Shown piece by piece: positions 13,825 to 42,337 of a DNA stretch of 64,000 nt. The first letter of the stretch is position 1; the number at the start of each line of letters is the position of its first letter. The notes under the pieces are model-generated. The model had not been told where the DNA came from, did no database searches, and saw only the letters and a list, made by a program, of their open reading frames with translations. This stretch comes from Tidjanibacter sp. Lineage in GTDB: Bacteria > Bacteroidota > Bacteroidia > Bacteroidales > Rikenellaceae. The stretch covers positions 1 to 64,000 of the forward strand of contig JAFXAY010000096.1 in assembly GCA_017521965.1 (NCBI GenBank), given 5' to 3'. Both the position numbers and the translations under genes were made by a program.

Positions 13825-13854
13825 CAAATTCTTCTCGAAATATACACCAAAAAA

Positions 13855-13897
13855 ACGTAGTAAAAACGCCCTAATTATTAGAGTTTTTTTACTACGT
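13855..13897. terminator. Terminator after trpB
   Basis: ACGTAGTAAAAA (13855-13866) pairs with the T-run plus ACTACGT (13884-13897). The stem is long and AT-rich and lies just past the trpB stop at 13928. A possible second arrangement on the plus strand makes direction ambiguous. Confidence 0.6.
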
Positions 13898-13927
13898 AAA
13901 AAAAGATTGACCCAAGTCGGTCGGAAA

Positions 13928-15298
13928 CTACAAGAGCCCCACCCTCTTTTGCGACGCCTCAATACTGCGAGCAATCTCCTCGGCCGAGAGCGACGAATCG
14001 CCAAGAGCACCGGAGAGGTATTGGTCGTAGGAGTACATATCTACCATACCGTGGCCCGAGAGGTTAAACAATATAGTCTTCTGCACCCCCTCCTCTTTGG
14101 CTTGGAGCGCCTCGCGGACAGCCACAGCAATAGCGTGTGCCGACTCAGGAGCAGGCACAATGCCCTCAGTACGGGCAAAGGCCAAAGCAGCCGCAAATGT
14201 TTCGAGTTGGTCAACCGATTGAGCCTCGATAAGGCCATCTTTAAGTAGTTGACTTACAGTACTTCCCGCACCGTGATAGCGCAGACCGCCGGCGTGAATA
14301 TCGGCGGGGTGGAAGGTGTGGCCGAGGGTGTACATCGGCACCAGCGGGGTGATACCTGCCGAGTCGCCAAAGTCGTAGCAGAGTTTTCCGCGAGTCAGTT
14401 TCGGACACGATGCAGGCTCCACCGCCACAATGCGCATCTTTGCCCCCTCGGTCAAGTTCTTACGCAGGAAGGGGAAGCCCAGACCCGCAAAGTTACTACC
14501 ACCACCAAAGCAACCAATAACAACATCGGGCATCTCCCCTGCCATCTCCATTTGCAGCACAGCCTCCTCGCCGATAATGGTCTGGTGGAGCACCACGTGG
14601 TTCATCACACTACCCAGACAGTAGCGGGTGGTTTCGGGGTTCTTGATTGCCAACTCTACCGCCTCCGAGATAGCCATACCGAGCGTTCCCGAGCAATCAG
14701 GCTCTTCGGCAAGCACCGAGCGACCATACTCGGTCAGCTCACTCGGCGAGGGGACAACATTGCCACCCCACACGTTCATCAGCAACTTACGATAGGGCTT
14801 TTGATTGTAGCTCACCCTCACCATAAATATCTGAGCTGTCTGCCCGAAGATATTGGTGGCGTGGGCCAAGGCTGTACCCCACTGACCGCCACCTGTTTCG
14901 GTAGTCAGGTGGGTGATGCCCTCAATGTGGTTGTAGTAGGCCTGCGGAATCGCGGTATTGGGCTTGTGCGACCCCACGGGCGAGGTACTCTCGTTCTTGA
15001 AGTAGATGTGAGCGGGGGTATCGAGCAACTTCTCCAACCCGTACGCTCTAACCAGCGGAGTGCAACGCCACAAACGATAGAGTTCTCTTACTCGGTCGGG
15101 TATCTCGATAAAACGCTCGGTCGAAAGTTCCTGCTCGGCAATGGAGCGGGCAAAGATATGACTGAGGTCATCGACCGTAACGGGCTGATGACTTTTGGGG
15201 TCGAGCAACGGAGCAGGACGGTTGGGCATATCGGCCACAACATTATACCACGCACTGGGTATCTGCTTGTCGCTTAGGAGAAACTTCTTTTCGTTCAT
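13928..15298 (-). CDS. trpB: Tryptophan synthase beta chain, TrpB2 type
   Basis: The product has 456 residues, longer than the usual TrpB1 (about 400). The PLP lysine is K112 in SHKPNTA, the catalytic glutamate E134 lies in TETGGGQWG, the PLP-phosphate loop is GGGSN (265-269), and LSGHG is near the C-terminus. The long N-terminus and the motif spellings match the TrpB2 class. It condenses indole with serine to make tryptophan. It stands alone, with no trpA or other trp gene, so it may salvage free indole. A complete tryptophan attenuator precedes it (15330-15535), which independently supports the role. Confidence 0.93.
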   Translation of the reverse strand: MNEKKFLLSDKQIPSAWYNVVADMPNRPAPLLDPKSHQPVTVDDLSHIFARSIAEQELSTERFIEIPDRVRELYRLWRCTPLVRAYGLEKLLDTPAHIYFKNESTSPVGSHKPNTAIPQAYYNHIEGITHLTTETGGGQWGTALAHATNIFGQTAQIFMVRVSYNQKPYRKLLMNVWGGNVVPSPSELTEYGRSVLAEEPDCSGTLGMAISEAVELAIKNPETTRYCLGSVMNHVVLHQTIIGEEAVLQMEMAGEMPDVVIGCFGGGSNFAGLGFPFLRKNLTEGAKMRIVAVEPASCPKLTRGKLCYDFGDSAGITPLVPMYTLGHTFHPADIHAGGLRYHGAGSTVSQLLKDGLIEAQSVDQLETFAAALAFARTEGIVPAPESAHAIAVAVREALQAKEEGVQKTILFNLSGHGMVDMYSYDQYLSGALGDSSLSAEEIARSIEASQKRVGLL

Positions 15299-15329: not shown

Positions 15330-15370
15330 AAAAAAAAATGACCGCTGCTTACACTATGTAAACAACGGGC
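15330..15370 (-). terminator. Attenuator terminator in trpB leader
   Basis: On the minus strand an 11-bp stem (15368-15358 with 15352-15342, two G-U pairs, loop of 5) is followed at once by a U-rich run at 15338-15330. This is a strong intrinsic terminator located 32 bases before the trpB start codon, inside its own leader. Confidence 0.85.
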
Positions 15371-15423
15371 CAACACAAATCTAAATACCACTATACGCAA
15401 CCTTCCACGCTCATTGTTTACAT
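15356..15423 (-). promoter_or_regulatory. Antiterminator pairing of trpB leader
   Basis: ATGTAAACAA (minus strand, 15423-15414, containing the last codon and stop of the leader peptide) is perfectly complementary over 10 bp to TTGTTTACAT (15365-15356). That second arm overlaps the 5' arm of the terminator, so the two structures exclude each other. A further 8-bp pair joins 15466-15459 and 15405-15398. A ribosome stalled on the Trp codons would leave ATGTAAACAA free; one reaching the stop codon would cover it. Confidence 0.85.
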
Positions 15424-15474
15424 CTCCGACAATGTGCGCCACCACCAATAGGTATTACGAAGGTTGTTCTGCAT
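15418..15474 (-). CDS. Tryptophan leader peptide of trpB
   Basis: This 18-codon frame encodes MQNNLRNTYWWWRTLSEM, with three consecutive Trp codons (15447-15439). It lies downstream of a consensus promoter, and its stop codon falls inside the antiterminator arm. The arrangement is that of trpL-type attenuation peptides: scarcity of charged tRNA-Trp stalls the ribosome at WWW. The peptide itself need have no other function. It is too short for ordinary gene callers. Confidence 0.85.
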   Translation of the reverse strand: MQNNLRNTYWWWRTLSEM

Positions 15475-15503
15475 AAAAATTGCTTTCTCTCGTATAGTTT
15501 ACA

Positions 15504-15535
15504 CAAATATAGGAATTATACTCCAAACCAACAAA
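15504..15535 (-). promoter_or_regulatory. Promoter of the trpB attenuator unit
   Basis: Minus-strand TTTG (15535-15532), 20 nt, TATATTTG (15511-15504): a perfect Bacteroidota promoter. A start near 15498 gives a leader of about 200 nt before trpB. Confidence 0.85.
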
Positions 15536-17599: not shown

Positions 17600-17654
17600 C
17601 TCCACCAAATAACAGAGGAACTCCAAAAAGGAGTTCCTCTGTTATTTGGTGGAG
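17600..17654. terminator. 25-bp perfect hairpin shared with tmRNA 3' end
   Basis: Positions 17600-17624 are perfectly complementary to 17630-17654, with an AAAAA/TTTTT loop. It can end the plus-strand secreted-protein gene. On the minus strand the mature tmRNA 3' end (17647) lies within the 5' arm of the hairpin. Confidence 0.8.
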
Positions 17655-18051
17655 CCGGAGGGAATCGAACCCTCGTCCAAACAGGCAGCCCAAAGGCTTT
17701 CTACACGCTTAGCCAACCTTTAATCCTTCTCCTGACGCACGGTAGGCGGCAACCAAACATCAGTCCCAGTCTTTAATTTCTAACCCTCAGGCCAAGACGC
17801 TCCTTCGGGCGAGCCTTAAATTGATGATACCCCGTTGCCAACGACAGAAAAGGCGGGTGTCAGAGGCGGGATACTCGTTTCCGCACCAGCCTTGGGCGCA
17901 GAAATTAAGCTAATTTTCCTTGAAAATTAAGCAGCGAGTGCGTAGCTATTATTGCCAATTAATTTTTTGGACATTCAGTTTAACGAGCCTCCATCCAACG
18001 CTCGACGTGCTTACCTTCCAACTGTCCCTGCTGTCAAAACCGGTCGGCCCC
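17647..18051 (-). ncRNA. ssrA: tmRNA (ssrA)
   Basis: The 3' part, read on the minus strand, is a tRNA-like T arm (GGTTCGATTCC) and acceptor ending in CCA at 17647. The 5' end GGGGCCG (18051-18045) pairs over 7 bp (one G-U) with CGGCTCC before the discriminator A. A tag frame lies 96-125 nt from the 5' end. tmRNA with SmpB frees stalled ribosomes and tags the unfinished protein for proteolysis. The total length of 405 nt includes CCA, which is encoded. Confidence 0.95.
17927..17956 (-). other. tmRNA tag-peptide frame
   Basis: From the resume codon GGC (17956-17954) the frame encodes GNNSYALAA and stops at TAA (17929-17927). With the alanine from the charged tmRNA the tag would be A-GNNSYALAA. 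The YALAA end is the usual degradation signal. The resume codon is assigned by analogy with Bacteroidota tags of nine residues. Confidence 0.85.
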
Positions 18052-40109: not shown

Positions 40110-40619
40110 ATGAAAGAGAATAGCAAAAATTGTTACCCCGACAAGAGTGGCTACCAACCAAAAGAGAAGGTAGCTGTGGGTGGCGTGGTACTCCACAACT
40201 CCCCCATCGAATACAACACCGATCGCACCCCGACCACACTCGAAGTGCACAACACGGGCGACAGACCTATACAGGTGGGCTCGCACTTCCACTTCTTTGA
40301 GGTCAATCGTTATTTGGAGTTCGACCGAGCTGCCGCCTTTGGCACTCACCTGAACATACCCGCCACCACCGCCATACGCTTCGAGCCTGGCGAGAGCAAA
40401 GAGGTGGAGGTAGTGCCTTTTAGTGGTAAGCAGCGAATAATTGGTTTCAACGGTTTGGTAGAGGGCTATGCAGGTGGCGAAGATGAGCCAACCTATCTAC
40501 CTACACGTCACAAGGCAATAGGTCGTGCACACAAGCGCGGCTTCCGATGCAGCGGTCAGCACTGCCACCACAATGCAGCAGGTAGCGAGAGTAACAAATC
40601 AGAAAAAACAAGAGAGTAA
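40110..40619 (+). CDS. ureB: Urease subunit beta with extended C-terminus
   Basis: The 169-residue protein has the UreB core [19 protein letters not shown] and [15 protein letters not shown] within residues 1 to about 120. A tail with [10 protein letters not shown] and a charged end follows, making it longer than minimal UreB proteins (about 100-110). The tail is Cys/His-rich and might bind metal. Its stop overlaps the ureC start (TAATG). Confidence 0.95.
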
Positions 40620-42337
40620 TGGCAACAATATCAAGACAACAGTACAACAATCTGTTCGGGCCGACCGTAGGCGACCGTATTCGTCTGGGCGACACCGACT
40701 TATACATAGAAATTGAGCGCGACCTGCGCACTTTGGGCGACGAGGTGGTCTATGGCGGAGGTAAGACTCTGCGCGACGGTATGGGTCAGGCCAACAGCAT
40801 CACAGGTTCACAGGGAGCACTCGACTTGGTGATAACCAACGTCACAGTGCTCGACCCAAAGGTGGGCGTAGTAAAGGCCGACGTGGGTATCAAAGATGGG
40901 CGAATAGCGGGCATAGGCAAGGCGGGCAACCCCAACACTATGCGCGGAGTGTCGCCCGAATTGGTGACAAGCGCCGCCACCGATGCCATATCGGGTGAGC
41001 ACCTGATACTCACCGCCGCCGCTATCGACGGACACGTTCACTTCATCTCGCCGCAGCAGGCTGAGGCCTGCCTGAGCAACGGTATCACCACGCTGATTGG
41101 CGGTGGTGTAGGTCCAACCGACGGAACAAACGGAACAACCATAACCTCCGGCCGGTGGAACATCGAGAAGATGATTCAGGCTGCCGAAGGATTGCCTATT
41201 AATATAGGTTATCTCGGCAAGGGCAACTGCTCAGTAGCCGAGCCTATGGAGGAGCAGATAAGAGCCGGTGCCTGCGGATTGAAGATACACGAGGATTGGG
41301 GCTCGACCCCTGCCGCCATACGAAGAGCGATGGCTGTTGCCGACCGCTACGATGTGCAGGTGGCAATACACACCGACACCCTCAACGAGGGCGGATATGT
41401 GGAGGATACCATTGCCGCCATTGATGGTCGCACTATCCACACCTACCACACCGAGGGCGCAGGTGGTGGTCACGCTCCCGACCTCTTGAAGATGGCATCG
41501 CAGCTCAATGTGCTCCCCTCTTCTACCAACCCGACACTCCCCTTCGGCATAAACTCGCAGGCGGAGTTGTTCGATATGATTATGGTGTGCCACAACCTCA
41601 ACCCCAAAATTCCCTCCGACGTGGCATTTGCCGAGAGCCGCGTAAGACCCGAAACGCAGGCTGCCGAAAATGTACTCCACGACTTGGGAGTGCTCTCGAT
41701 GATTACCTCCGACTCACAGGCTATGGGTCGTGTGGGTGAGTCGTTCCTCAGGGCATTCCAGATGGCATCGTATATGAAGTCTGTGCGTGGCCGACTCCAC
41801 GAAGATAGCGACCACAACGACAACTTCCGAGTACTGCGCTACTTGGCGAAAGTTACGATAAATCCCGCTATCACCTACGGTATCTCCGATGTGTTAGGCT
41901 CAATCGAGCGTGGCAAGATGGCCGACCTTGTGTTGTGGGAGCCCGCCTTCTTTGGCACCAAGCCGAAGATGGTAATCAAGGGCGGTATGATAAATTGGGC
42001 GCAGATGGGCGACCCCAATGCCTCGCTGCCCACTCCGCAGCCTATCTATATGCGTTCTATGTTTGGCTCGTTCGGCAAGGCGATGCCCAAGACCTGCCTA
42101 ACCTTCACCTCGCGCGCAGCGTGGGAGAGCGATATAGCCCACCGTCTTGGATTGGAGCGCGAGGTATATCCCGTATGCCGCACACGCTCGCTCACCAAGG
42201 AGCAGATGATACTCAACTCGGCAACACCCAATATAGAGGTCAACCCCGAAACATTTGAGGTGAGGATAGACGGTAAGGTGATTGAGATAGCACCTGCTGC
42301 CGAGTTCCCGCTCTCGCAACTCTATTGGTTTAGTTAA
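40619..42337 (+). CDS. ureC: Urease subunit alpha
   Basis: The 572-residue catalytic subunit has DGHVHF (nickel His pair), GLKIHEDWG with the lysine that is carbamylated to bridge the two nickel ions, and MVCHNL with the flap cysteine and catalytic histidine. The family's next histidine here is Asn. [13 protein letters not shown] has the nickel-binding aspartate. All active-site residues I could check are present, so the enzyme should be functional once matured by UreEFGD. Confidence 0.97.

Follow-up and report, generated by a model that had tools for sequence, protein, structure and literature searches.

The trpL leader of Escherichia coli (Rfam Trp_leader, RF00513) combines a short Trp-rich peptide with alternative 2:3 and 3:4 helices, a possible 1:2 helix, and a terminator with a U-run ahead of the first structural gene, and all of these elements recur at the locus described here. 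When Naville and Gautheret added Firmicutes in 2010 (PMC2965389), demonstrated leader-peptide systems were confined to Proteobacteria and Actinobacteria. Trp leaders of the actinobacteria Corynebacterium glutamicum and Streptomyces venezuelae, as cited in PMC4833913, resemble our case in being leader-peptide Trp attenuators outside Proteobacteria; they differ in phylum and in target genes. Closer in phylum but of another class, Flavobacterium psychrophilum yielded RNA-seq 'strong clues' that leader peptides attenuate operons of amino-acid biosynthesis; the main text of that report (PMC9723704) contains neither 'trp' nor, as far as seen, a comparative or covariation case. Short ORFs 'reminiscent of leader peptides' have been noted in B. 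thetaiotaomicron (PMC7366714). Our literature search for attenuators in Bacteroidota and Bacteroides, which covered papers outside subscription, gave nothing closer than such clues, and an earlier prediction in subscription papers is possible. A 2010 study by Lopatovskaya reportedly may have predicted attenuators in more phyla.

Here we analyse a leader in front of a lone trpB2 gene of Tidjanibacter sp. (Rikenellaceae). It lies in a 64,000-nt stretch of DNA, which we call the window. An earlier note, made from the letters of the window, had placed a complete tryptophan attenuator at 15330-15535. The coordinates were right and every part it named was found on the minus strand; one element, the segment that we call region 1, had been missed. 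Comparison with relatives makes it very probable that transcription of the lone trpB2 is attenuated by way of a ribosome on this leader, with charged tRNA-Trp as the signal.

Leader layout and proposed control

The following features, all on the minus strand, were assigned.

15504-15535 (-): Bacteroidota-type promoter, with TTTG at 15535-15532, a 20-nt spacer and TATATTTG at 15511-15504
15418-15474 (-): predicted leader peptide MQNNLRNTYWWWRTLSEM, 18 codons followed by TAA
15439-15447 (-): predicted sensor, three consecutive Trp codons
15430-15438 (-): region 1, immediately 3′ of the Trp codons, able to pair with region 2 (anti-antiterminator)
15408-15422 (-): region 2, 5′ arm of the antiterminator, overlapping the leader stop codon at 15420-15418
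15357-15372 (-): region 3, shared by the antiterminator as its 3′ arm and by the terminator as its 5′ arm
15339-15353 (-): region 4, 3′ arm of the terminator (3:4 pairing)
15330-15338 (-): terminator U-run (T9), read from the sequence and the terminator scan
13928-15298 (-): trpB2, 456 aa, stand-alone tryptophan synthase beta, assigned with TrpB2-type NCBIfam models
13850-13900 (-): strong terminator-like hairpin with T-runs 3′ of trpB2, from folding

The promoter had been described as a consensus one. A promoter is indeed present, of the Bacteroidota type and not of the sigma-70 consensus: a sigma-70 scan gave no match on the minus strand, an absence for which the Bacteroidota motif accounts. 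Among 81 family leaders, 75 have the element TAnnTTTG no more than 90 nt ahead of the leader ATG, and transcription is predicted to start near 15498.

The peptide with its Trp triplet, the antiterminator whose first arm holds the stop codon, and the terminator that shares the second arm all stood as the earlier note had drawn them. The duplex of region 2 with the terminator arm was calculated at -15.8 kcal/mol and the terminator hairpin (15372-15339), which is followed by the T9 run, at -16.4 kcal/mol; the trpB2 start lies 31 nt beyond the U-run. Taken alone, the window is suggestive: the fold z-score is -2.2, and the terminator scan of this single window found one terminator-like site against 0.7 expected.

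From what sequence and comparison provide, namely the parts, their conservation, covariation and spacing, and the missing trp genes, we infer the positions of the ribosome, termination, the direction of control and the reaction of the enzyme. When Trp is scarce, the first ribosome would stall at WWW and mask region 1, leaving region 2 free. Region 2 would capture region 3 upon its synthesis, so that the 3:4 terminator would be barred and RNA polymerase would continue into trpB2. When Trp is abundant, the ribosome would reach the stop codon, where in the window leader it would occupy region 2; helix 3:4 would then form and transcription would end before trpB2. After release of the ribosome, helix 1:2 could form and occupy region 2. 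Bacteroidota hardly use Shine-Dalgarno sequences, and the mechanism requires coupling of transcription and translation in this phylum, which is assumed here.

Two other features of the window were recorded in passing. A tmRNA gene lies at 17647-18051 (-) (RF00023, 159.5 bits). The Rfam model '5_ureB_sRNA' matched at 40769-41070 (-), antisense to an ORF at 40619-42337 (+) that by eye reads as the urease alpha subunit; this match probably reflects conserved urease coding sequence and not an sRNA. A match of Rfam BTnc201 to the leader, at 15.1 bits against a gathering threshold of 105, was discarded as noise.

TrpB2 and its metabolic setting

The protein encoded behind the leader scored 684.7 bits with NF009057 (cut-off 366) and 605.7 bits with TIGR01415 (cut-off 518.85). 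It belongs to the same enzyme family as the stand-alone TrpB2 structures 6hul, 6hte and 4qys in the PDB, the closest solved chain being 6hul_B at 438 bits. Because the gene upstream is divergent and a strong hairpin follows trpB2 (-25 kcal/mol and z -5.1 for a segment of 81 nt that includes it), the transcript is probably monocistronic and trpB2 a single-gene unit.

None of trpA, canonical trpB or IGPS was detected in the organism's own genome, which is about 95% complete, and control genomes gave matches. Among relatives, trpA scored above the cut-off in only 20 of the 107 family genomes that carry TrpB2 (counted by hand, some of these genomes being incomplete), so that salvage in the absence of a de novo route appears to be the norm in this family. 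TrpB2 would build Trp from indole and serine, or possibly from another amino donor. Since no trpA or IGPS is in sight, the indole would have to be taken up from the surroundings or be released by the tryptophanase of the cell itself. Besides a tryptophanase (NF053783, 930 bits, cut-off 750), the genome encodes a paralogue of it. The two tryptophanase-family genes lie at L239:51-1523 (contig C4) and L240:1435-2883 (contig C54), and no tnaC-like Trp leader was seen upstream of them. The cell should thus be able to convert Trp to indole with tryptophanase and indole to Trp with TrpB2, and a Trp-sensing switch on trpB2 would stop the two reactions from opposing each other. Trp-sensed indole salvage, which the earlier note had proposed, was soundly reasoned, and salvage by TrpB2 under the control of Trp appears to be the best reading of the locus.

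The attenuator could also be real while TrpB2 makes some other beta-substituted amino acid, needed at low Trp for a different reason. What stand-alone TrpB2 does in the cell is settled only in part, a lone archaeal trpB2 without identified function has been described (Merkl 2007, PMC1854888), and TIGR01415 is typed as 'hypoth_equivalog'. We nevertheless consider this unlikely. The proposed switch on trpB2 would sense Trp and is of a type common to the canonical trp operons of the order, which points to Trp as the product of TrpB2; moreover, a role in indole salvage has been reported for Thermococcus TrpB2 (Hiyama 2014, as cited in PMC11085991).

Conservation and alternative helices among relatives

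The family of the window organism, to which Alistipes belongs, was sampled through 268 genomes. TrpB2 was found in 107 of them, and 101 trpB2 leaders were long enough to judge. A short ORF containing W.?W and ending 60-260 nt before trpB2 was present in 83 of these 101 leaders, compared with 32 of 2020 dinucleotide shuffles; for ORFs with WWW the corresponding numbers were 65 of 101 and 0 of 2020. The opposite strand gave none of either kind. In about one fifth of the 101 family leaders no Trp-rich ORF was detected at the expected place. The Trp run is WW, WRW or WLW in some relatives, and the lengths and ends of the leader peptides vary widely. Conservation extends to the residues behind WWW, which read R/H-S/P/T-L.

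This last feature raises the question of an arrest peptide similar to TnaC or ErmCL. Here the nascent WWWRxL would itself stall the ribosome when a small molecule is present (free Trp or indole, for example, or an antibiotic); the helices, which could be identical to those proposed above, would report the stall. Conserved residues behind WWW are what such a peptide would be expected to display, yet the codons for RSL, RTL or RPL coincide with region 1, and RNA pairing can account for their conservation. The variable lengths and ends of the peptides, and Trp runs reduced to WW, WRW and WLW, fit the counting of codons and not a precise arrest motif. In addition, induction by free Trp would be odd for an enzyme that makes Trp. 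We regard an arrest peptide as very improbable, and codon-based sensing of charged tRNA-Trp is retained as the preferred reading.

Our alignment of 72 family leaders, made on the sequence only, extends from the Trp codons as far as the U-run. Ten others were dropped: in five the automatic terminator search had chosen a wrong or weak hairpin or arm, and five were of another sequence type or fitted poorly. Helix 2:3, the antiterminator, was paired in 95.4% of alignment cells and helix 3:4, the terminator, in 92.2%; these percentages are biased upwards, since the leaders were selected for their fit to the common layout and the structure columns were taken from the alignment itself. The covariation counts are less affected by this selection. 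The covariation score of helix 2:3 was 0.288 and fell to 0.081 or less when the helix was slid by 1-3 columns, and that of helix 3:4 was 0.458, with at most 0.152 after the same displacement. Two-sided changes were seen in 11 of the 15 pairs of helix 3:4. On a tree built from the N-terminal part of TrpB2, at least 16 switches from one Watson-Crick pair to another were needed for helix 2:3 and at least 46 for helix 3:4; thus the covariation cannot stem from one inherited change. As region 3 belongs to both helices, three strands change together.

Helix 1:2, a weakly supported pairing, appears to be the weakest part of the layout. In the columns concerned (columns 13-21 with 39-47 of the alignment), 73.8% of cells were paired, compared with a shuffled mean of 72.2%. 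Two-sided changes occurred in 6 of 9 pairs, and in the window the helix was predicted with a probability of 0.976 for RNA extending up to region 2.

That a Trp-rich ORF arose here by chance, next to a hairpin that just terminates constitutively or stabilises the 5′ end, is hardly credible: shuffled regions do contain 0.7 terminator-like sites each, but a WWW ORF present in 65 of 101 leaders never arose in the 2020 shuffles, and a plain terminator does not need covariation between regions 2 and 3. It is the conservation in relatives that rules chance out, through the WWW ORF in the family, the covariation in both helices and the single match of a covariance model in the organism's own genome (see below). 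The earlier note had named homologous leaders without Trp codons or without paired arms as evidence that would count against attenuation; most of the family carries both. Together with the compensatory changes in the alternative helices and the spacing described next, the conserved Trp codons support its proposal of Trp attenuation of a lone trpB2.

The position of region 2 is informative about what is conserved in the leader. Of 82 family leaders, 64 have the start of region 2 at 14-18 nt past the last Trp codon. Measured from the stop codon, by contrast, region 2 lies anywhere between 39 nt before and 16 nt after. Because the first spacing is narrow and the second wide, selection appears to keep the distance to the Trp codons. 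If the edge of the ribosome is set 12 nt beyond the first base of the codon in the A site, a ribosome on any Trp codon would lie over region 1 and not reach region 2. For window RNA extending to the end of region 3, the predicted probability of helix 2:3 was 0.998 when a ribosome occupied the last Trp codon and 0.476 for the RNA without a ribosome. The medians over the 72 leaders were very similar (0.997 and 0.468, respectively).

A ribosome at the stop codon would cover region 2 in 49 of the 72 leaders, that of the window among them. The geometry put forward in the earlier note, with a Trp-stalled ribosome clear of region 2 and a ribosome at the stop codon on top of it, thus applies to the window, but the placement at the stop codon is not general. 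In the remaining 23 leaders the ORF continues across region 2 (LVNNE...) and stops shortly ahead of the terminator, and a ribosome at the stop codon would already be past region 2, between regions 2 and 3. Helix 1:2 might be expected to matter most in this class; it was not stronger where the stop codon lies beyond region 2 (p = 0.28). A stronger 1:2 therefore does not account for the blocking of 2:3 under Trp excess in leaders with long peptides.

Range of the element and relation to known systems

We built a covariance model from the family leaders. Searched against the whole genome of the window organism, it gave a single match, at this leader (E 2.2e-15, a score that is partly by construction since the window sequence was in the training set). 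Matches were obtained in 103 of the 268 family genomes, of which the weakest (above about E 1e-4) may be due to chance. Outside the family, 11 of 79 TrpB2 loci matched at E < 0.01 (12 of 80 including one Alistipes), among them Dysgonomonas, Salinivirgaceae, Paludibacter, Prevotellaceae and Bacteroidaceae records; the remaining TrpB2 loci had no match at this threshold, so the element would seem to be patchy outside the family or too diverged.

Several further matches of the model, at least five, lay some 6 kb ahead of trpA, at the place where a canonical trp operon starts. In other Bacteroidales, canonical trpB is preceded by peptides such as MNLTSVNKFWWWHLQLQQS. Leaders resembling WWWHLQL or WWWRLQL, with terminators, were observed before canonical trp operons in Bacteroidales, and some Bacteroidales genomes carry both a Trp leader of a canonical operon and the trpB2 attenuator. 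Of 23 genomes from the window's own genus, no more than 3 showed TrpB2. In three congeners that lack trpB2, a canonical trpB stands behind a Trp-rich WW leader of its own (MKYSFAYRLWWHHLQLSKVVSR or a similar peptide), and the search for canonical trpA in these three found none. A single genus thus presents different Trp solutions, each behind a Trp leader.

It is conceivable, and we put it forward tentatively, that leader-peptide Trp attenuation goes far back in Bacteroidales and is shared across the order, serving both canonical trp operons and lone trpB2 genes, and that it sets the direction of a Trp-indole cycle in gut species that bear tryptophanase. If so, plentiful Trp would be turned into indole and scarce Trp replenished from it, and tight coupling of transcription and translation would be shown for Bacteroidota.

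More immediately, a conserved, covarying Trp attenuator in about 80-100 genomes of one family makes a solid case for Bacteroidota. Its operation would imply coupling, in this phylum, between RNA polymerase and the first ribosome behind it. It is also indirect but strong evidence that a lone TrpB2 serves the supply of Trp, and it would link indole, a major gut metabolite, to a Trp-controlled pathway of re-use in Alistipes-like bacteria.

Compared with E. coli trpL, the leader described here is arranged differently in several respects. Region 1 lies directly behind the Trp codons, and the stop codon falls within region 2 in the window and before, inside or beyond it in relatives. The target is a lone trpB2 instead of trpEDCBA, and both the phylum and the type of promoter are different. 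The RF00513 model did not match the leader at its gathering threshold, nor at any E-value up to 10. By its layout the leader would work like trpL of RF00513 without being a member of that Rfam family. The class of mechanism is old; its presence in this phylum, its target gene and the breadth of its conservation are new.
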